Assembly (NCBI RefSeq): GCF_032814565.1
Contig: NZ_CP136521.1
Coordinates: 1,832,501 to 1,896,500 of the forward strand
DNA from: Hwangdonia lutea
Lineage (GTDB): Bacteria > Bacteroidota > Bacteroidia > Flavobacteriales > Flavobacteriaceae
Length of the DNA: 64,000 nucleotides
Reading direction: 5' to 3'
In this document: piece by piece, positions 3,659 through 23,306 of the stretch
How the letters are laid out: every line of letters starts with the position of its first letter
Position numbering within the stretch: the stretch's first letter is position 1
Notes under the pieces: model-generated
Database searches by the model: none
What the model was told of the DNA's origin: nothing
The model's input: only the letters and a program-made list of their open reading frames with translations
Position numbers and translations under genes: made by a program

Positions 3659-5022
3659 AGATGAGGTCTTGGTGCATAATATTTTTTATTTTGATATTAT
3701 CCTGTGCAGGGAATGACGGCCCAGGGTATCAAGAACCTTATGACCCTAATGACGACGACCCTGTAGTTGAAAAACTAACAGATACCGAAATGATGGATCT
3801 GGTACAAAAAGAAACCTTTAAGTACTTTTGGGATTTTGCCGAAACAAATTCTGGTGCGGCTAGAGAGCGCTACCATCCCAAAGAACCCACATTAAATCAG
3901 AATGTTGTAACTACTGGCGGTACGGGTTTTGGTTTGATGAGTATTTTGGTGGGTATTGAAAGAGGCTATATTACCAACGCAGAAGGCGTTGCAAGGCTGA
4001 ATAAAATATTGGGTTTTTTTGAAACCGCCGACCGTTTTCACGGCGCGTGGCCACACTGGATTAATGGAACCAACGGAAACGTTATTCCGTTTAGTACCAA
4101 AGATGACGGCGGCGACCTGGTGGAAACCGCTTTTTTTGCACAAGGATTGGTGTGCGTAAAAGAGTATTTTAAAAACGGAACAACTGAAGAAAAAGCACTG
4201 GCCGATAAAGCCGATGCTTTATGGAAAGGCATCGAATGGGATTGGTACACACAAAACCAAAAGGCTTTGTTTTGGCACTGGAGCCCGAATTATGGGTTTG
4301 ACATCAATTTAAAACTTCGCGGCTATAACGAAGTACTTATTACCTATATATTGGCAGCAGCGTCACCGGATTACAGCATTACCAAAACCGATTATGAAGA
4401 CGGGTGGGCAAATAACGGTGGCATTGTGTCTTCGGCTTCGCAATACGGTATTCCTTTAGTATTAAATCACGCTGGCGGTTCTAATTTTGGTGGCCCCTTG
4501 TTTTTTAGCCATTATTCCTTTTTGGGTTTAAACCCTAAAAACTTAAGCGATCAATACGGTAATTATTGGAATCTTGTTGTGAATCATACTAAAATCAATC
4601 GTCAATATTGCATTACCAATCCTAAAAACTATGTAGATTACGGCGCAGACTGTTGGGGTTTAACGGCAAGTTACTCCAGAAATGCCGATGGCTCTAGAGG
4701 CTATTCAGCGCACAGTCCATCAAACGATAAAGGTGTTATGTCACCAACGGCAGCCATAAGTTCGATACCCTATACACCGGCAGAATCTTTAGAAGTTATG
4801 CATTATCTTTATCAGAACAAAGATAAATTATTGGGGCCGGCAGGTTTTTACGATGCCTTTAGTCCGCATTATAATTTTTGGGTGACCGATACCTATTTAG
4901 CTATCGACCAAGGCCCACAAATTATTATGATTGAAAACCACAGAACAGGATTGCTGTGGAATTTATTTATGCAAAACACCGATGTGAAAAACGGACTGGA
5001 TAAACTAGGATTTAATTATTAA
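3655..5022 (+). CDS. Second PF10091/GH144-like glycosidase, lipoprotein
   Basis: A paralogue of the preceding gene, 455 residues, with lipobox ILSC. It keeps the same landmarks: FKYFWDFAETNSGAARER, TTGGTGFGLMSILVGIERGY, FHGAWPHWING, GGDLVETAFFAQG, NWxLVVNHTKI and YLAIDQGPQIIMIEN. The sequences have diverged clearly, for instance in the loop around KLRGYNEVLITY versus PVGGYNECLIMY, so they may split endo/exo or chain-length roles rather than be redundant. The start overlaps the previous stop (ATGA). Beta-1,2-glucanase activity follows from the family and is not proven by sequence. Confidence 0.85.
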   Translation: MKMRSWCIIFFILILSCAGNDGPGYQEPYDPNDDDPVVEKLTDTEMMDLVQKETFKYFWDFAETNSGAARERYHPKEPTLNQNVVTTGGTGFGLMSILVGIERGYITNAEGVARLNKILGFFETADRFHGAWPHWINGTNGNVIPFSTKDDGGDLVETAFFAQGLVCVKEYFKNGTTEEKALADKADALWKGIEWDWYTQNQKALFWHWSPNYGFDINLKLRGYNEVLITYILAAASPDYSITKTDYEDGWANNGGIVSSASQYGIPLVLNHAGGSNFGGPLFFSHYSFLGLNPKNLSDQYGNYWNLVVNHTKINRQYCITNPKNYVDYGADCWGLTASYSRNADGSRGYSAHSPSNDKGVMSPTAAISSIPYTPAESLEVMHYLYQNKDKLLGPAGFYDAFSPHYNFWVTDTYLAIDQGPQIIMIENHRTGLLWNLFMQNTDVKNGLDKLGFNY

Positions 5023-5036
5023 AACATAAAGACATA

Positions 5037-5828
5037 ATGGGTAAACATTCAAAAAACATTTTAATATTAATTTTTATTGGAGCAACAAATATGTTGACTG
5101 CACAACATGAGGCTATGTATTCAAAAGAACTTTATATCAGTCAATCTGATACCTTGCAATATCGCATGATGATGCCAAAGGACTTTGACGATTCCAAGCA
5201 ATATCCAATCATATTATTTCTTCATGGAGCTGGTGAGCGCGGAAGCGATAATAAGGCACAATTGGTGCATGGCAGTAAATTGTTTGCTTCCGATGAAAAC
5301 AGAGAAAAATTTCCGGCTATCGTAATTTTTCCGCAATGCCCTAAAAACAGTTATTGGGCAAACGCCCGAATAGATAGGTCCACAAACCCATTAAAAATTG
5401 AATTCCCATTAGATATCGAACCCACAAAACCGCTCAACTTGGTTATGCAATTGATGGACGAGATAAGCGCGAAACCCTACGTAAATAAAAACAAAATTTA
5501 CATTGGTGGCTTGTCTATGGGCGGTATGGGTACTTTCGAAATGGTTTACCGAAAACCACAATTTTTTGCCGCAGCAATTAGTATTTGCGGTGCCGGAAAC
5601 CCCGAAGCTACCAAAGCTTATGCCAAAACAACACCGTTTTGGGTGTTTCATGGCGCCAACGATAATGTTGTAAATCCACTGGCCTCGGTTAATATGGTTG
5701 AAGGCATGCTTAAAAACGGCGGCAAACCAAATTTTACTTTATACGCTAACGATAATCATAATAGTTGGGATTCAGCCTTTGCTGAACCTCAATTTTTACC
5801 TTGGCTTTTTTCAAATATAAAACAGTAA
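5037..5828 (+). CDS. Secreted alpha/beta-hydrolase, PHB-depolymerase/CE1-like esterase
   Basis: 263 residues with an N-terminal signal peptide ending near MLTAQ, so it is probably periplasmic. The oxyanion-loop motif FLHGAGERGSDN, the nucleophile elbow GGLSMGGMG (Ser160) and a late His in NDNHNSWD give a catalytic triad of the alpha/beta-hydrolase fold. The closest general class is the phospholipase/carboxylesterase or polyhydroxybutyrate-depolymerase-like esterases common in polysaccharide loci, where they remove acyl or aromatic esters from glycans. It lies 14 bases after the second GH144-like gene and 6 bases before the GH3 gene, clearly in the operon. The actual ester substrate is unknown. 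Confidence 0.8.
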   Translation: MGKHSKNILILIFIGATNMLTAQHEAMYSKELYISQSDTLQYRMMMPKDFDDSKQYPIILFLHGAGERGSDNKAQLVHGSKLFASDENREKFPAIVIFPQCPKNSYWANARIDRSTNPLKIEFPLDIEPTKPLNLVMQLMDEISAKPYVNKNKIYIGGLSMGGMGTFEMVYRKPQFFAAAISICGAGNPEATKAYAKTTPFWVFHGANDNVVNPLASVNMVEGMLKNGGKPNFTLYANDNHNSWDSAFAEPQFLPWLFSNIKQ

Positions 5829-5834
5829 CGAATA

Positions 5835-8090
5835 ATGAAAACACTAACCAAAACAATGCTTTTTATAGGAATCATTTCTTTGTTCCTTTTAGGATGCAAT
5901 ACTTCAGAAGACAAAAAAAACAATTCAACTACAGAAACCGTATTTGACGCTAAGGTCGATTCTTTAATGAGCTTAATGACTTTACAAGAAAAAGTCGGTC
6001 AAATGGTTATGTACAGTGGTAGTGGCGCAATTACGGGACCAACGGTAAATACAAATTTCAGAACCTATATTAAAGAAGCCAATGTGGGTGCGATGCTGAA
6101 TGTATATTCGGCAAAAGCCACAAGAGATTTACAAAAACTGGCAGTTGAAAATACCCGTTTGGGCATTCCGTTGTTGTTTGGCTACGATGTCATCCACGGT
6201 TTTAAAACCATATTTCCCATCAATTTAGGATTGGCTGCCAGTTGGGATTTAGAGGATATTGAAAAAGGTTCGCGCATTGCCGCCGAAGAAGCTTCGGCCG
6301 TTGGGATCCATTGGACCTTTGCACCCATGGTTGATATCGCCAGAGACCCACGTTGGGGGCGCATTTCAGAAGGCATGGGAGAAGATGTGTACTTAGCAAG
6401 CAAGATAACTAGGGCTTATGTTAGGGGTTTTCAGGGTGACGATCTTTCCAAAACCAACACCATTTTGGCCTGTGCAAAGCACTTTGTAGGCTATGGCGCA
6501 GCCCAAGCCGGAAGGGATTATCATACGGTAAATATGGGAGAGGAAGAGCTTAGAAATGTTTATTTGCCGCCTTTTAAAGCCGCTGTTGATGAAGGCGTAG
6601 AAACCTTTATGACGGCTTTTAACGAAATTAACGGCGTTCCTGCAACGGCAAATAAATTCATTTTTAATGATATTTTGAGAGACGAATGGGGTTTTAACGG
6701 ATTTGTAGTAACCGATTATACGGCCATTAATGAGTTGGTGCCACACGGTTTTGCCAAAGATGAAAAACACGCCACAAAGTTGGCCATTGAAGCGGGCATA
6801 GACCAAGATATGATGAGTAGTGCAAACAGACTTTATTTAGAGGAATTGGTTAATGAAGGCGAAGTGGATGTTGCATTGGTAAACGAAGCTTGCCGAAGAA
6901 TTCTGTTGGCAAAATTTAAATTGGGCTTGTTTGACGACCCTTATAAATATTGTGATGAGCAACGTGAAAAAGAAACCATTTATAAGCCCGAGTTTTTAGA
7001 AGCGGCGAGACATTCGGCGGCCATATCGTCGGTGTTGCTTAAAAATGATGAAAAAGCGTTACCATTAACGTCAGAAAAAACAATAGCCTTAATCGGCCCT
7101 TTAGCAAAAGACAAAGAAAATATTTTAGGTAATTGGGGGGCAGCAGGCGACCGCAGAGGAAAAGCCATAAGTGTACATCAAGGCATTCAAGAGTATGTTG
7201 CCGATGCTAAAATAAACTATGCCAAAGGTTGCGAAATTGAAGGTGATGACGAAAGCGGATTTAACGAGGCCGTTAATGTGGCAAGACAATCAGATATCGT
7301 GGTGATGGTTATGGGCGAGGATTACGATATGAGTGGTGAAGCCGCCAGCAGGACCAACATCAAACTACCCGGTAGCCAAACCAAATTGATAAAGCGTATT
7401 CGCGAAGCTGTTCCAAACAAAAAAATCGTGTTGGTTTTAATGAATGGCCGTCCACTAGATTTATCAGAAGAAGATACCTTGGCCGATGCCATTTTAGAAA
7501 CTTGGTTCCCAGGCACTATGGGTGGTAACGGTGTAGCCGATGTGTTGTTTGGTACATACAACCCATCGGGGAAACTAACCGTAACCTTTCCTAGGAATGT
7601 GGGGCAAGTGCCCATTTATTATAATATGAAAAATACGGGCAGACCCATTCCTGCAAACAATCCAAAAGAAGATTACAAATCCAATTACTTAGATGTGCCA
7701 AATACACCGCTTTACCCTTTTGGGCACGGATTGAGTTATACCACTTTTGAGTATTCAAATTTTAAAATGTCGACGGAAACTATAGGTTTTTCAGACACTT
7801 TAAAGGCATCGGCAACCATTACAAATACAGGTGATTACGATGGGCACGAAGTGGTGCAGCTTTACGTTCACGATAAAGTGGGAAGCATAACCAGACCAGT
7901 AAAAGAACTTAAAGGCTTCGAAAAAATATTCCTTAAAAAAGGAGAAAGTAAAACAGTAAGTTTTGATGTAACTGCTGAAGATTTAAAATTTTTCAACCAC
8001 GAAAAATTTACGGTAGAGCCCGGTGAATTTGAAATTGCCATTAAAGGCTCTTCGGATTTCGATTTTGAACACACATTCACTTTAGAATGA
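5835..8090 (+). CDS. GH3 family beta-glucosidase-like enzyme, lipoprotein
   Basis: 751 residues with lipobox LLGC (Cys21). The order is GH3 N-terminal barrel (about 40-370), GH3 C-terminal alpha/beta domain (about 400-620) and a fibronectin-III-like tail (about 665-745), the full-length architecture of BglX-type enzymes. The nucleophile is predicted as Asp294 in FVVTDYTAI. Other landmarks are GYDVIHGFKTIFP, ARDPRWGRISEGMGED and KHFVGYG. GH3 enzymes release terminal beta-linked glucose. A relative from Bacteroides thetaiotaomicron (BT_3567) acts on beta-1,2-gluco-oligosaccharides, which would fit the GH144-like neighbours. A terminator follows the stop. Confidence 0.93.
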   Translation: MKTLTKTMLFIGIISLFLLGCNTSEDKKNNSTTETVFDAKVDSLMSLMTLQEKVGQMVMYSGSGAITGPTVNTNFRTYIKEANVGAMLNVYSAKATRDLQKLAVENTRLGIPLLFGYDVIHGFKTIFPINLGLAASWDLEDIEKGSRIAAEEASAVGIHWTFAPMVDIARDPRWGRISEGMGEDVYLASKITRAYVRGFQGDDLSKTNTILACAKHFVGYGAAQAGRDYHTVNMGEEELRNVYLPPFKAAVDEGVETFMTAFNEINGVPATANKFIFNDILRDEWGFNGFVVTDYTAINELVPHGFAKDEKHATKLAIEAGIDQDMMSSANRLYLEELVNEGEVDVALVNEACRRILLAKFKLGLFDDPYKYCDEQREKETIYKPEFLEAARHSAAISSVLLKNDEKALPLTSEKTIALIGPLAKDKENILGNWGAAGDRRGKAISVHQGIQEYVADAKINYAKGCEIEGDDESGFNEAVNVARQSDIVVMVMGEDYDMSGEAASRTNIKLPGSQTKLIKRIREAVPNKKIVLVLMNGRPLDLSEEDTLADAILETWFPGTMGGNGVADVLFGTYNPSGKLTVTFPRNVGQVPIYYNMKNTGRPIPANNPKEDYKSNYLDVPNTPLYPFGHGLSYTTFEYSNFKMSTETIGFSDTLKASATITNTGDYDGHEVVQLYVHDKVGSITRPVKELKGFEKIFLKKGESKTVSFDVTAEDLKFFNHEKFTVEPGEFEIAIKGSSDFDFEHTFTLE

Positions 8091-19907: not shown

Positions 19908-20981
19908 TTAAAACAACTTTAACTGACCATCTTTAAATGATTCATGCAAATCGCAGTTTAGTTTGGGCATCGTTTTGTTTTTAAAATATTTTTTCCGCGC
20001 CAAACGAATCAACATATTTATTTGTTCGGCAATTTTACCTTCACCGTGCATGCGTGTCCCGTAACGGCTATCATTTAAATTGCCGCCGTGGCAACTTTCA
20101 ATTTGGTGCAATACTTTATCGGCGCGATCGGGCATGGTTTTTTTAATCCAATCGGTAAAAATTTCGCCAATAGCGCCATTAAGTCTTACAATGGTGTGCG
20201 CGATGCCCAGGGCGCCGTTGTCCGATGCGGCTTTGGCCAGTGGTAAAATTTCGTGGCTGTTTATAGAGGGAATAATGGGTGCCAACATCACGTTAACAGG
20301 AATCCCGTTTTCGCTTAAGGTTTTAACCGTTTCCAATCGTTTTTTAATGCTGGCCGTTCTAGGTTCTAAAAGGCGTCGTGTATCTTCATTCAGCGATGTA
20401 ATCGATAGGTTTACACCAATGAGATTATCGGTAGCCAATGCTTTTAAAATATCCAAATCCCTTAAAATCAAAGCGTTTTTTGTAATAATGGCCACCGGGT
20501 GTTTGTATTTTAAAAAAAACTGTAAACACTGTCGGGTAATTTCAAATTGTTTTTCAGCGGGTTGGTAGCAATCGGTATTTCCGGACAATACGATGGGGTG
20601 GGCTTTCCAACTTTTCTTTTTAATTAATGCTTCCAATAGTTTTGGCGCGTCCTTTTTTACCATAATCCGGCGCTCAAAATCCAAACCCGCGCTATAACCC
20701 CAAAACTCGTGCGAATTTCGGGCGTAGCAGTACACGCAACCGTGTTCGCAACCTTGGTATGGATTCATCGAGTAGGCCATCCCAATATCGGGGCTTTCCA
20801 CTTTATTCACAATGGTTTTAGGGAACACCTCCAAATACAGCGTTTTGTTTTTGTCGCTGGTTTCACCTTCCTTTTGGCAATACTCCAGAAAGTCGTCGCG
20901 TATGTCGTGGCTCAATTCGAAAAAACGATTGGAGACGTTTAGTTGGGCACCACGCCCTTTTATGGTAGATTTTGGATTCAT
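19908..20981 (-). CDS. PA0069-type radical SAM protein
   Basis: 357 residues. The cluster motif CEHGCVYCYAR (C-x3-C-x2-C) binds the [4Fe-4S] cluster and S-adenosylmethionine. Downstream VVLSGNTDCYQPAEKQF, AIITKNALILRD and NVMLAPIIPSIN follow the barrel strands typical of the PA0069/SplB-like radical SAM group. The N-terminal KGRGAQLN and the conserved C-terminal segment are family features. No substrate has been assigned to this group with confidence, although spore photoproduct lyase is a distant relative. It is a single gene. Confidence 0.87.
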   Translation of the reverse strand: MNPKSTIKGRGAQLNVSNRFFELSHDIRDDFLEYCQKEGETSDKNKTLYLEVFPKTIVNKVESPDIGMAYSMNPYQGCEHGCVYCYARNSHEFWGYSAGLDFERRIMVKKDAPKLLEALIKKKSWKAHPIVLSGNTDCYQPAEKQFEITRQCLQFFLKYKHPVAIITKNALILRDLDILKALATDNLIGVNLSITSLNEDTRRLLEPRTASIKKRLETVKTLSENGIPVNVMLAPIIPSINSHEILPLAKAASDNGALGIAHTIVRLNGAIGEIFTDWIKKTMPDRADKVLHQIESCHGGNLNDSRYGTRMHGEGKIAEQINMLIRLARKKYFKNKTMPKLNCDLHESFKDGQLKLF

Positions 20982-21112
20982 TACAGAAAATATAGCCCCT
21001 TAAAATTAGGTATTATTTGTATTGGAAAGTGTTAAAAGTAGGATGGGTTATTAACAAAATTGATGAGTTGAGGTTTAAGTAAAAAAAGAGATAAATATCT
21101 GTACATTTTATA

Positions 21113-21143
21113 TTGATTTTGTAGAAATATTCGGCTAGATTTG
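21113..21143 (+). promoter_or_regulatory. Bacteroidota-type promoter of the small gene
   Basis: TAGATTTG (21136-21143) matches TAnnTTTG exactly, and a TTG occurs 20 bases upstream (21113-21115). The ATG of the next gene follows 38 bases later. Confidence 0.5.
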
Positions 21144-21180
21144 TTAGTCTACTTTTATGTAATTATATGTATAAAGAAAA

Positions 21181-21420
21181 TTGATGAAAGCTGAAGAACT
21201 TTTAAAACAATTTGATAAAATAAACACTAATGGAATGCAACTTTCAAAAAGAAGAGGATTATTAACTTCAACTTGGTTGTTATATCAAAAAAATAATTTT
21301 TATTACTTCTTTGATATCATGGATAATATTGTATTCTGCGATGATTACAAATATTCAAAAGATGAATTTCTTGAAGAGTATAAAAATTCATATTTTAAAA
21401 TAGATTGTGAAATTTCTTAA
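21181..21420 (+). CDS. Small hypothetical protein
   Basis: 79 residues, rich in Lys, Phe, Tyr and Asp, with no signal peptide, membrane segment or motif I recognise. It reads MKAEELLKQFDKIN at the N terminus and continues with a compact mixed pattern (YYFFDIMDNIVFCDDYKYS). A good promoter precedes it, and its stop lies 4 bases from the stop of the convergent nuclease gene. Small proteins of this kind are often immunity or anti-restriction partners, but nothing in the sequence proves that. It is probably real because it has a promoter and fills the gap. Confidence 0.55.
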   Translation: MMKAEELLKQFDKINTNGMQLSKRRGLLTSTWLLYQKNNFYYFFDIMDNIVFCDDYKYSKDEFLEEYKNSYFKIDCEIS

Positions 21421-21423
21421 AAA

Positions 21424-21894
21424 TCACAAATTTATTTGAAATTGAATTCTTTTATTTCTTATAATCTTTTCGAATTCTTCAATAGTTAACATTGCATGCG
21501 AAGGAGATTTTTCATTTAAACAAACAAAACAAAATCTAAATCTATCGCCTAATAATTTACCAAAATTGAATTCATTTTCAGTAGCACCAAAAAAGAATCC
21601 TTTAGGGTTTTCAGGAAGGTGTTTTTTGGTTGTTTTTAATTCTACAAATAGAATTTCATCTAGATGAGTTTCAATAAAGTCTTTTTCAAATTTTATACCT
21701 CTTAATTTAGGAATGTAAACCATATCAAATGATTGCAGATAATTATGAGGAATATTTACTCTATCCAAAAGTTCCTTTTTCATATCTTTATCTATTTTGA
21801 AAAATCCTGTTTGTTCTTCAATCAGATAATTTATTCCTTGTTTCTCTGTAACATTATTTGATATTGTCAATTTGAATGAATGTTTTCTTGACAT
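21424..21894 (-). CDS. Putative PD-(D/E)XK-type restriction endonuclease
   Basis: 156 residues. I see SFDMVYIPK (Asp57) and, 28 residues later, EILFVELKTTKK (Glu85-x-Lys87). This is the acidic residue plus E-x-K pattern on predicted beta strands that defines PD-(D/E)XK nucleases. No methyltransferase gene is nearby. The start overlaps the stop of the helix-turn-helix gene by one base (TAATG), the tight coupling seen in controller-plus-restriction-enzyme operons. Base composition is AT-rich like the rest of the island. Nuclease activity is an inference from the short motif. An alternative is an uncharacterised DNA-binding partner. Confidence 0.6.
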   Translation of the reverse strand: MSRKHSFKLTISNNVTEKQGINYLIEEQTGFFKIDKDMKKELLDRVNIPHNYLQSFDMVYIPKLRGIKFEKDFIETHLDEILFVELKTTKKHLPENPKGFFFGATENEFNFGKLLGDRFRFCFVCLNEKSPSHAMLTIEEFEKIIRNKRIQFQINL

Positions 21895-22157
21895 TAATCT
21901 TCTGTTTTTAATTTATAGTGTTTAAGTAATTCTGTAGCTTTCTTAAACTTTAGAAGTTCATCAATTGTCAAATTGAACACTTTTGCAAAAACAGCCATAT
22001 TGGTAAGTGAAATGTTTCTTTCACCTCTTTCTATCATTCCTATGTAAGTCCTGTGAAATCCTGTTTTATAAGAAAGTTGTTCTTGACTCAATTTTTCTTG
22101 AGTTCTTAAGTAACGAATTCTTTTGCCAAATTCTTTTAAGAGAAAGTTATTTATCAT
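21894..22157 (-). CDS. XRE-family helix-turn-helix regulator, controller-protein-like
   Basis: 87 residues, nearly all one HTH_3 domain: FGKRIRYLRTQEKLSQEQL, GFHRTYIGMIERGERNIS and LFAKVFNLTIDELL-like helices. Size and layout are those of C-proteins of type II restriction systems, small dimeric regulators that bind their own promoter. An inverted repeat, GAAACtATAC-N5-GTATGTTTC, sits just upstream of the start codon. The gene is translationally coupled to the putative nuclease. It is the clearest sign that the island was a restriction-type module. Confidence 0.85.
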   Translation of the reverse strand: MINNFLLKEFGKRIRYLRTQEKLSQEQLSYKTGFHRTYIGMIERGERNISLTNMAVFAKVFNLTIDELLKFKKATELLKHYKLKTED

Positions 22158-22162
22158 AATTC

Positions 22163-22186
22163 GAAACTATACTAATTGTATGTTTC
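22163..22186 (-). promoter_or_regulatory. Operator-like inverted repeat upstream of the HTH gene
   Basis: Arms GAAAC-t-ATAC and GTAT-GTTTC flank the 5-base centre TAATT, with one unpaired base. It lies 6-29 bases before the controller start codon and overlaps a near-consensus -7 box (TAGTTTCG on the minus strand). Binding there by the HTH protein would repress its own operon. Confidence 0.6.
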
Positions 22187-22313
22187 AATCAACCGACAAT
22201 GTGTATCAATAAACAAAGCTTTTTTATTAGCTTAACAAATGCAATTTCTGTAATTATAGAGTGAAGTAATTTTAATAATAAAAAAGAAAACCGTAAAAGA
22301 AATAACTGAATAA

Positions 22314-22502
22314 GGAATAATAAAAACTTTTTTGCCAAAGAAAACTGAAAACAGAATAAGTCACGTTAGACCACACGCAAGAAATGCAGCAGATACTTTT
22401 GAATTACCTGTCGCAGATAAATTAACAGGATTGACTGAATATACGAAACATTGTTTTTGGCTAAACGCAAGTTACGTGAAAGACGAAATATATCTGAAAT
22501 AA
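22314..22502 (+). pseudogene. 3' remnant of a MutH/Sau3AI-like restriction nuclease gene
   Basis: An open frame without a start codon encodes about 62 residues and ends in a normal stop. It contains LPKKTENRISHVRPHARNA, the word TFELP, and EYTKHCFWLNASYV. I recognise this succession (HVRPHxxNxxDT, then Q/H-xFWLNxxY) as the C-terminal end of MutH/Sau3AI-family endonucleases. A stop codon directly precedes the frame, and no catalytic N-terminal part is present here. It therefore looks like the 3' stump of a deleted gene, in opposite orientation to the neighbouring controller and nuclease. Confidence 0.6.
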
Positions 22503-22523
22503 ATTAAGCAATAAGGAACAAAA

Positions 22524-23306
22524 CTACTCCCCCACAAACTCCGCCTTCCGCTTCTCTAAAAACGCCGTAGTCCCTTCGGTAAAATCTTGGGTATCAAAAC
22601 AGTTTCCAAATTCCGAAATTTCAACATCAAAACCGTTGGTACCGTCTTTATAGTTGGCGTTAATGGCTTTAATGGCAGCGCTAATGGCCACCGAGGAGTT
22701 TCGTGTAATTTTACCGGCAATTTTTTCGCAAAGCGTCAATAATTCTTCGGGTGCCGTTACGTGGTTTATCAAACCGTAGCTCAGGGCTTGATTGGCGTCA
22801 ATCATACCTGCGGTCATAATCAGTTCCATGGCGCGCCCTTTGCCTATAAGTTGTGGCAAACGTTGTGTACCGCCATACCCTGGAATAACCCCAAGGGACA
22901 CTTCGGGCAAGCCCATTTTGGCATTGTTGCTGGCTACCCTAAAATGGCAGGCCATAGCCAATTCCAATCCGCCACCAAGCGCAAAACCGTTAATAGCGGC
23001 AATGGTTGGTGTGCCTAGATTTTCGACAAAATCGAACAATAACTCCTGACCTTTTTTGGCGAGTTTCTTGCCTTTTTTAGAATCGAAATGCGCAAATTCC
23101 GATATATCGGCGCCCGCCACAAAAGCCTTTTCGCCGCTGCCCGTTACAATAATAACCTTGGTGTTTTTATCGGTATCGGCCTGTTTAAAAGCCTCGTGCA
23201 ATTCTGTAATCGTGGCTTTGTTTAAAGCGTTTAATTTACTGGGGCGGTTTATGGTAATGGTTGTAATGCCCTTGTTGAATGCGGTTAAAATGTTATTGTA
23301 ATTCAT
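22524..23306 (-). CDS. Enoyl-CoA hydratase/isomerase (crotonase family)
   Basis: 260 residues, the standard crotonase length. The oxyanion-hole segments are GEKAFVAGADISEF and GFALGGGLELAMACHFR, and LPEVSLGVIPGYGGTQRLP carries the catalytic Glu of hydratases. It should hydrate enoyl-CoA thioesters in fatty-acid or related degradation. Its start overlaps the end of the histidine kinase gene by 14 bases, so the two are co-transcribed, an unexplained but tight pairing. Substrate chain length is not predictable. Confidence 0.92.
   Translation of the reverse strand: MNYNNILTAFNKGITTITINRPSKLNALNKATITELHEAFKQADTDKNTKVIIVTGSGEKAFVAGADISEFAHFDSKKGKKLAKKGQELLFDFVENLGTPTIAAINGFALGGGLELAMACHFRVASNNAKMGLPEVSLGVIPGYGGTQRLPQLIGKGRAMELIMTAGMIDANQALSYGLINHVTAPEELLTLCEKIAGKITRNSSVAISAAIKAINANYKDGTNGFDVEISEFGNCFDTQDFTEGTTAFLEKRKAEFVGE

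Follow-up and report, generated by a model that had tools for sequence, protein, structure and literature searches.

A possible methylase-independent nuclease cassette in place of Sau3AI-type restriction-modification operons

Restriction-modification (R-M) systems are viewed as selfish and difficult to shed, since a cell deprived of the methylase can be killed by the endonuclease. How, then, can a controller and a restriction-like nuclease persist in an island that encodes no methyltransferase? This question is raised by a locus of Hwangdonia lutea that lies in a stretch of 64,000 nucleotides, analysed here as a whole (hereafter the window). An earlier note had read the locus as a decayed restriction-type island, in which the nuclease is inactive, requires modified DNA or is countered by a small protein. 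The relevant features are the following (other loci and genomes are cited by L and G numbers, G000 being the genome of the window).

21184..21420, plus strand: p79, a protein of 78/79 aa convergent with nuc, function unassigned, predicted alpha-beta fold
21424..21894, minus strand: nuc, a PD-(D/E)XK-like nuclease of 156 aa, presumed catalytic residues E17, D57, E85 and K87
21894..22157, minus strand: HTH, a controller-type (C-protein-like) regulator of 87 aa
22162..22208, minus strand: probable operator 5' of HTH, an imperfect inverted repeat
22293..22502, plus strand: relic of a Sau3AI-type restriction endonuclease, C-terminal ~70 codons, open part 22332-22502

The G+C content is 25.6% in the island and 42-45% in the genes on either side. 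The coupling of an HTH controller to a nuclease-like protein by a TAATG overlap, already described in the earlier note, is confirmed. The first gene matches HTH_3 (7e-14), and its best PADLOC model is Control_protein (4.1e-19). It adjoins nuc in 38 of the 43 nuc relatives. Of the 39 upstream regions compared, most show the inverted repeat 5' of HTH, which we take to be C-box-like, in Bacteroidota and Sulfurimonas alike; it is not recognisable in L042, L046 and L047 and only partly so in L048. An HTH protein of about 80 aa with a putative palindromic operator 5' of its own gene has the arrangement of a C protein.

The nuclease itself has no match in PADLOC and none above the cut-off in Pfam, and a sequence search of the PDB gave nothing meaningful. 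Its sub-threshold Pfam matches include nuclease domains (FokI cleavage, 0.011; NOV_C, 0.018), and it carries no separate modification-reading domain. The AlphaFold2 model (pLDDT 79.9, pTM 0.79; residues 14-16 and 149-156 below 50) had no Foldseek match at E ≤ 0.001, while VIA-align placed PD-(D/E)XK nucleases on top: Hjc (Z 5.9), the SPARDA nuclease (5.9) and RecU (5.6), followed among others by MspI (4.5), I-Ssp6803I (4.5), PvuII (4.4) and DpnI (4.0). The nuclease-like character read from the sequence is thus upheld by the predicted structure, and nuc probably belongs to the PD-(D/E)XK superfamily by fold, with all scores below Z 6 and hence a generic fold match. With type II, homing and repair enzymes interspersed at Z 4-6, the function cannot be read from these matches, and a family outside the list is also conceivable. 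The acidic and lysine residues expected of the superfamily, presumably catalytic, are invariant in the alignment of 43 rows, and nuc has a median dN/dS of 0.034 over 30 usable pairs and of 0.067 over 44. Both genes of the pair are evidently intact and under strong purifying selection, which speaks against an inactive nuclease. Among the phages, plasmids and viral contigs searched there was no nuc relative, so nuc looks chromosomal within what was searched.

What has decayed in the island is, judging from the sequences, a separate Sau3AI-type R-M system and not the HTH-nuc pair; this part had been overlooked when the island as a whole was called decayed. The relic at 22293-22502 matches NCBIfam NF040973 (2.6e-11, profile positions 414-474 of 475), has a stop near its start and is 84.5% identical over 71 aa to the Sau3AI-like protein of L010 and 90% identical to that of L011 over the compared part. 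Its score is far below the full-length cut-off of 300 bits, as expected of a fragment of this family, in which two intact relatives score 550.6 and 562.8 bits.

Comparison of loci revealed both empty and filled sites. The nine empty ones hold a full-length operon of methylase and Sau3AI-type endonuclease without HTH-nuc (a linked HTH2 was recognised in 6/9). In 20 of the 43 copies, nuc is reversed and has what is left of a Sau3AI-type cytosine methylase and its endonuclease on one or both sides; this count includes L026, despite an identity of only 36% in its Sau3AI-like neighbour, and leaves out the low-identity C5 rows L030, L044 and G205. The methylase relics are C-terminally truncated in 13/13 loci, their alignments ending at codon 103-156 of 415/428, or at 336 of 428 in L020 and L024. 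These two longer methylases are probably inactive as well; that of L020 matches PF00145 to position 251 of 324. In 19/19 loci the alignment of the endonuclease relic leaves out at least the first 30 of 467 codons. The commonly deleted core covers the last ~92 methylase codons and the first ~30 endonuclease codons (L075, 6013-6365). Wherever the two genes are visible in a filled locus, both are disrupted, and the junction and orientation of the insertion are the same in several R-M lineages, with exact breakpoints that vary. The cassette thus appears to occupy and inactivate a methylase gene. In the remaining 23 copies no R-M relic is found in the available flanks, some of which end at contig ends. 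The copy in the window, where little but the cassette is left, appears to be a late, worn-down example.

The filled state is scattered over several R-M lineages. In a tree of 16 rows it requires four changes between filled and empty, three of them forced by well-supported branches; a single gain together with two losses could make up three of the changes, and scores this low were reached by 117 of 500 shuffles. With at least three changes forced by the tree, invasion has probably recurred. The nuclease is 97-99% identical among L024, L029, L031 and L032, where the methylase relics are only 67-94% identical. The methylase relic of L031 is a mosaic, like L032/L028 beside a repeat (92-97%) and like the intact L073 further out (93-98%), which points to spread by homologous recombination. 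The repeat in question was considered as a terminal repeat of the cassette itself and rejected because it is dispersed: its 30 loci comprise 11 cassette loci (nine different cassettes), 17 without any island part, one that adjoins another C5 methylase and one without match to island parts. At L102, which has no nuc, an unrelated C5 methylase borders on a copy of this repeat, so damage to R-M systems next to repeats also occurs without the nuclease.

We tentatively favour, as the best explanation of these observations, a self-contained mobile restriction cassette that works without a methylase and displaces Sau3AI-type R-M operons, its nuclease cutting the mark of the displaced methylase in the manner of drg in Neisseria. 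A C-protein-like regulator would control the small PD-(D/E)XK endonuclease, probably through its own operator. The endonuclease would need no cognate methylase, and the cassette would spread horizontally, land reversed at the junction of methylase and endonuclease and break both genes, the leftovers eroding until little else remains. Most likely no methylase is needed because the nuclease cuts DNA that bears the displaced methylase's mark, probably 5-methylcytosine in GATC. The requirement for modified DNA, which had been offered earlier as one option, would then be correct. The benefit would be restriction of DNA and R-M systems that bring this mark, and the controller may hold back the nuclease for as long as the old mark is still being diluted. 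Killing specific to methylated DNA does not by itself explain why 20/43 copies lie in relics; the explanation also has to assume spread along homologous relics. The lack of a separate modification-reading domain in nuc weighs against this reading as well.

Such a nuclease should not be found with the methylase that it displaces. None of the 45 nuclease genomes has an intact methylase closely homologous to that of L070 (E ≤ 1e-30), and no intact Sau3AI-type methylase lies beside nuc in any of the 43 relatives. Truncated methylases of the L070 type, at least 66% identical, are present in 13/45 genomes, and a different C5 methylase gives a partial match (40%) in G205. Reciprocally, nuc is missing from all 10 genomes with a Sau3AI-type match (G171 served as positive control), two of these matches being only 31-37% identical. 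Sau3AI-type enzymes are rare (11 of 395 genomes of the order, the relic of the window included), so 0/45 is weak evidence alone. As with drg, the nuclease seems never to accompany the intact methylase (0/45 and 0/10), in statistics that are weak because the systems are rare, and the insertion by its nature accounts for part of the missing coexistence.

The strongest rival, which we consider rather unlikely, is a homing-type endonuclease. It would cut a long site in the C-terminus of the methylase and the N-terminus of the endonuclease and be copied in through the relic arms; insertion would destroy its own target, so that no methylase would be needed. A fuller version, to which we give the same low credence, is a mobile killer of R-M systems: a C-protein-controlled cassette, often flanked by repeats, that homes into the Sau3AI-type junction across lineages, breaks both genes, so that the host survives, and afterwards keeps such systems out. 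The constant place and orientation of the cassette in several R-M lineages and the commonly deleted core look as if related targets had been entered again and again at one site, as expected of homing; the mosaic flank of L031, the lack of coexistence and the presence of I-Ssp6803I among the fold matches agree with it. Against it stand the 23 copies without a visible relic, allowing for flanks cut by contig ends. Homing enzymes without targets usually decay, whereas the Sulfurimonas copies, which lack R-M relics, are under purifying selection (median dN/dS 0.069, 6 pairs), as are those of the Acidobacteriota group. C-protein-like control would also be unusual for a homing enzyme.

The same control gene bears on a second rival, an improbable one, namely that HTH is the antitoxin of a DNase toxin and that the island is kept by addiction. 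An overlapping unit of regulator and nuclease with a conserved putative operator would suit this reading, and HTH has a weak match to an antitoxin model (couple_hipB, 4.2e-8, 33 bits against a cut-off of 71.65). However, its best match is the R-M Control_protein, its alignment ends at residue 71-74 of 87 in several relatives with no conserved toxin-binding tail seen, and nuc occurs without HTH in L017 and L049, so the toxin is not always accompanied by its supposed antitoxin.

Somewhat less probable still is an ordinary type II enzyme, the product of an orphan operon of controller and restriction gene, tolerated because a methylase is encoded elsewhere or because its sites are few. Gene order, PvuII-like size and the C-protein-like operator would fit. 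In L044 an intact MerR-fused C5 methylase (416 aa, PF00145 2.7e-87) follows nuc at 90 bp on the same strand and could be its cognate partner; this nuc lacks the first 9 aligned residues, and no HTH is seen in a locus that starts only 69 bp upstream. Some C5 methylase of unassigned specificity is present in most nuclease genomes (33/47 genome entries). But no family is common to all: five of the 45 nuclease genomes (G000, G202, G208, G209 and G239) have no match to the C5, D12 or N6/N4 families. The statement of the earlier note that the island lacks a modification enzyme holds, and the methyltransferase elsewhere that it had named as counter-evidence did not turn up, G000 having no match at E ≤ 0.001 to the three type II families sought (PF00145, PF02086 and PF01555). 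The four strong N6_Mtase matches of G000 adjoin, by eye, apparent type I specificity genes. The nuclease of the window would thus seem to lack the cognate methylase of a type II R-M system. A common D12 partner was also considered, as D12 methylase genes adjoin the pair in five relatives (L015, L016, L032, L033 and L037), and rejected because 22/45 nuclease genomes have no D12 match.

Site scarcity gives a mixed picture of this type II reading. GATC is the most depleted 4-bp palindrome of the window's genome (O/E 0.28), but 104 kb of G000 still contain 75 copies. All 4-bp and 4+N palindromes and 63/64 six-base ones occur in the window, so nuc, if expressed, cannot cut them efficiently in their unmodified state. 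GATC is lower in nuclease genomes at p = 0.038, uncorrected and as one of 16 palindromes (20-kb pieces, 17 against 16 genomes, after 4/20 comparison stretches shorter than 15 kb were dropped), in groups unmatched by phylogeny and with comparison genomes drawn from two samples, unsorted by R-M status and including two with weak, stop-containing nuc matches (G160 and G172). A wider set of 31 nuclease genomes, of unequal length and including other phyla, gave p = 0.002 against the same 16.

We find it very doubtful that nuc is a structure-specific or repair nuclease, similar to Hjc and RecU or analogous to Vsr for a C5 methylase, that arrived with the R-M system: Hjc and RecU are among its top structural scores, it has C5 methylase neighbours and such an enzyme would be harmless without a methylase, but the fold match is generic, intact R-M operons lack nuc, and neither stand-alone copies nor C-protein-like control fit.

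A decayed island with a nuclease inactive or restrained by p79 is barely credible, even if the methylase is missing and a decayed R-M system is indeed present, given the selection on nuc, its invariant catalytic residues and the patchy occurrence of p79. Homologues of p79 adjoin nuc in only 11/43 relatives, other small genes replace it in some, and intact nuc genes without such a neighbour exist (L013 and L018, for example), against the suggestion that it confers immunity; it is probably an optional passenger. Its predicted structure (pLDDT 92.5) has no PDB match at E ≤ 0.001 and no convincing fold match, and the protein matches nothing in Pfam or NCBIfam at E ≤ 0.01 and has no plasmid relative. 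The other small genes scanned at or near its position had no match above a cut-off.

Set against the reputation of R-M systems as hard to lose, these loci have both R-M genes broken and a replacement nuclease that stays, and they recur in different R-M lineages. If the cassette acts as drg does, replacement of a methylase is a more general process that has a dedicated enzyme family and control gene, and not an oddity of Neisseria; if it homes, genetic elements that hunt R-M systems exist. Both readings are directly testable with the 156-aa protein.

We recognised no such cassette in the literature searched, which does not establish its absence from print. Among known systems, NOV_C (DUF3883) nucleases resemble nuc through a weak profile match in 34/43 members (E ≤ 1, best 8.8e-4), but the nuclease of the window stays below the Pfam cut-off (PF13020, 15.6 bits against a gathering cut-off of 22.1) and is a stand-alone protein. 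I-Ssp6803I shares size, fold class and the logic of its insertion site; unlike it, nuc has no intron and only a putative target site. Type II operons of controller and restriction gene likewise have a small HTH regulator overlapping a small PD-(D/E)XK enzyme and a palindromic operator, whereas nuc has no intact Sau3AI-type methylase beside it, its other methylase neighbours being the D12 genes and the intact, different C5 gene described above. In the conflict of PcaRCI and PcaRCII, discussed with the idea of McrBC as a safeguard, a solitary methylation-dependent enzyme is incompatible with an R-M methylase (PMC8989522), as proposed here; the R-M methylase there silences the nuclease gene, which encodes an HNH fold, while here the nuclease cassette sits in a broken R-M system. 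The closest parallel is drg of Neisseria (NmeBII, DpnI-like), an endonuclease gene that lies inside the dam methylase gene and inactivates it, the dam+/drg- and dam-/drg+ states being mutually exclusive in 84 isolates; the gonococcal enzyme cuts GmeATC, and the gene spreads by horizontal exchange with a low dN/dS of 0.11 (PMC516771, PMC4269198). The two differ in that no relation was seen (DpnI reaches only Z 4.0), in that the available text of these reports mentions no C-protein-like regulator and places drg in Neisseriaceae at one locus, and in that the specificity of drg is proven where that of nuc is inferred. Finally, drg has a solitary Dam as its target, whereas nuc would displace a C5 R-M operon, in which the endonuclease has to be lost as well.

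The island in the window (positions 1832501-1896500 of the 3.9-Mb single-contig genome of Hwangdonia lutea, G000) is AT-rich, with a G+C content of 25.6% against 42-45% in the two flanking genes. The features are the following (names of the flanking genes were read from the sequence):

19908-20981, radical-SAM-like gene, flanking the island
21184-21420, plus strand, gene of 78/79 residues (p79), convergent with the nuclease gene
21424-21894, minus strand, nuclease gene (156 residues), overlapping the controller gene as TAATG
21894-22157, minus strand, helix-turn-helix (HTH) controller gene (87 residues), overlapping the nuclease gene as TAATG
22293-22502, plus strand, C-terminal remnant of a restriction endonuclease of the Sau3AI family (NF040973, E 2.6e-11, profile positions 414-474 of 475)
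22524-23306, enoyl-CoA-hydratase-like gene, flanking the island

The endonuclease relic is 84.5% identical over 71 residues to a relative and has a stop codon close to its start. On the p79 side we saw neither a methylase relic nor a relic of the HTH gene linked to intact operons (HTH2). The earlier note regarded the whole as a decayed restriction island. A decayed Sau3AI-type restriction-modification (R-M) system is indeed present, and had been overlooked at 22293-22502, but the nuclease cassette is intact. The island is an intact nuclease cassette on the grave of an R-M system, not a decayed island with an idle nuclease.

Relics of Sau3AI-type operons accompany the cassette in 20 of the 43 relatives of the nuclease, in addition to the window; 19 of the 20 include the endonuclease, and L033 has a methylase relic alone (the count includes L026, a distant match at 36%). 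Full-length methylase-endonuclease operons lacking the pair were found in nine fetched loci, six with a recognisable HTH2; the short contig of a tenth locus, L079, carries just the endonuclease. Compared with the intact operons, the pair is reversed and lies at the junction between methylase and endonuclease. Alignable methylase relics stop at codon 103-156 (336 in L020 and L024) and the least eroded endonuclease relics start at codon 31-48 of 467. Both genes are thus broken in every filled locus, i.e. every cassette-bearing remnant, where they are visible, and there is therefore no danger from an endonuclease lacking its methylase. Displacement of the Sau3AI-type system by the cassette is well supported.

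Some loci have additional peculiarities. The intact-type operon of L074 has a 389-aa gene (6289-7458) separating the two enzymes, at the spot where the cassette lands elsewhere, and is otherwise full-length. L010 encodes a 452-aa Sau3AI-like ORF (3838-5193) with its first ~38 codons replaced, in a genome where C5 methylase matches are fragments only and D12 matches were not found. In L032, the Sau3AI-type island is enclosed by a complete D12 adenine methylase gene on one side and an additional N-terminal fragment of it on the other (3900-4895 and 7579-7800; 65% identity over 65 residues), and the pair is beside a similar D12 gene in L015, L016 and L033. The island of L009 (827-9310) is surrounded by three 506-aa ORFs, probably transposases, sharing their first 40 residues.

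The invasion probably happened repeatedly, judging from the locus phylogeny. On the tree of 16 filled and empty (intact-operon) loci, the state needs four changes, at least three forced by well-supported branches, and none of 200 bootstrap trees allows a single change. The filled state is hardly clustered (117 of 500 shuffles are equally low in changes). Three changes could formally represent one gain and two losses, but each loss would have to rebuild the two broken genes, for instance through recombination. The methylase relic of L029, outside this tree, is nearest that of the intact L078 (83%, versus 64-76% to others), while its nuclease shares 97-99% identity with the L024, L031 and L032 copies. 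The methylase relic of L031 is a mosaic: near a flanking repeat it resembles the filled L032 and L028, and from about 120-180 bp outward the intact L073. From these discordances, homologous recombination seems to have carried a filled allele into another R-M lineage.

This repeat (78-91 bp), which resembles REP elements, is found at the cassette in 12 of the 43 relatives: as inverted copies on either side in L009, L010, L011, L020 and L031 (some partial), and on one side in L013, L024, L029, L028, L032, L036 and L038. It was not found beside the window cassette. Several genomes have scattered copies of it: G000 has at least 24 matches (~86-90 bp, e.g. G000:C1:834601-834686 and 809102-809192; of 92 first-look candidates, 23 were scored) to this repeat, which accompanies the cassette in other genera. 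In other genomes it is almost restricted to the cassette (two in G201, one in G203). The repeat may be a trace of the cassette's original mode of entry. In L102 (G214:C23) it adjoins a different C5 methylase (32% identical) with the nuclease cassette absent, an arrangement that looks similar in G222:C19:211824-212513 (repeat at 211922-212010).

p79 had been proposed to provide immunity. Its homologues are convergent with the nuclease in just 11 of the 43 relatives, other small genes take its place in some of the rest, and its predicted fold gave no convincing structural match. DNA similarity between cassettes often stops at the nuclease stop codon. A role in immunity is unlikely and not needed, and p79 is best seen as a passenger. 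In L025 (2965-3540), HTH2 and a p79 homologue are fused in one 191-aa ORF, with no methylase in between.

Contrary to the suggestion of inactivity, residues E17, D57, E85 and K87 are invariant in the 43-row alignment and median dN/dS is 0.034 (nine loci, 30 usable pairs) or 0.067 (14 loci, 44 usable pairs); the controller has 0.077 and 0.122 in the same sets. Constraint is likewise seen in copies that lack R-M relics, with values of 0.069 in Sulfurimonas (six pairs), 0.119 in the Acidobacteriota group (five pairs) and 0.126 in 22 mixed loci (34 pairs), a single one of which has a relic. The predicted model (pLDDT 79.9) resembles PD-(D/E)XK enzymes, with structural matches at Z 4-6 to Holliday-junction resolvases, SPARDA nucleases, MspI, PvuII and one homing enzyme; Foldseek gave no match at E ≤ 0.001, and 34 of the 43 family members weakly match NOV_C. 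Among the relatives, L036 has a broken N-terminus, L043 and L044 have unusual first eight or nine residues, and L050 ends at a contig edge. As far as alignment and model can tell, this is a real nuclease kept by selection.

We searched for methylases in 47 entries (45 distinct nuclease genomes, two duplicates). Some C5 match occurs in 33 of the 47 entries, D12 matches in 23/45 genomes and N6/N4 matches in 23/45 (19 above the cut-off). No family is common to all 45, and five genomes, including G000 and G239 (merely 1.0 Mb), matched none of the three. G000 has five N6_Mtase matches, the four strong ones adjoining type I specificity-like genes (judged by eye). None of the 45 genomes has a close homologue of the displaced methylase that is intact (13 have a truncated one), and none of ten genomes with a Sau3AI-type match has the nuclease. 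Against this methylase-free picture, in L044 (70-1923) the N-terminally altered nuclease precedes, on the same strand, an intact C5 methylase with a MerR fusion, which shares 28% identity with the Sau3AI-type methylase over 194 residues. The 69 bp upstream of that nuclease look like the tail of a different gene, perhaps part of an IS.

The window contains all 4-bp and 4+N palindromes and, of the 64 six-base palindromes, 63. On these counts, an expressed and efficient cutter of unmodified short palindromes could not live in G000, so the target of the nuclease would be modified DNA, a rare long site or a structure, unless the enzyme is strictly held back. The likeliest of these is modified DNA, which would explain survival without a methylase, the ruined adjoining methylase (13/13) and selection where R-M is absent. 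Homing to the methylase-endonuclease site would better account for the site preference; it leaves the upkeep of relic-free copies unexplained, and we consider it unlikely. Among 4-bp palindromes, GATC is the most strongly depleted in G000 (75 observed versus 264 expected, O/E 0.28; window, L153 and L154), compatible with a GATC-related history, although the contrast with other genomes is weak; GATC as the probable site of the displaced system is inferred from the Sau3AI family name. Unlike the well-supported displacement, a modified-DNA target of the nuclease is our proposal from sequence and analogy.

The controller adjoins the nuclease in 38 of the 43 relatives. It is absent in L017 and L049; L044 and L050 have little or no upstream DNA and L036 is broken. 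Most copies from Bacteroidota and Sulfurimonas have a palindromic candidate operator in front of the controller gene; none was recognisable in three Acidobacteriota-group copies. The best PADLOC match of the controller is Control_protein. Delayed expression by C-protein-type control is described for R-M systems in the review PMC3874152; such control could hold the nuclease off while an old methylation mark dilutes out. The reading of modified DNA itself has an experimentally proven analogue in Neisseria drg (PMC516771, PMC4269198).
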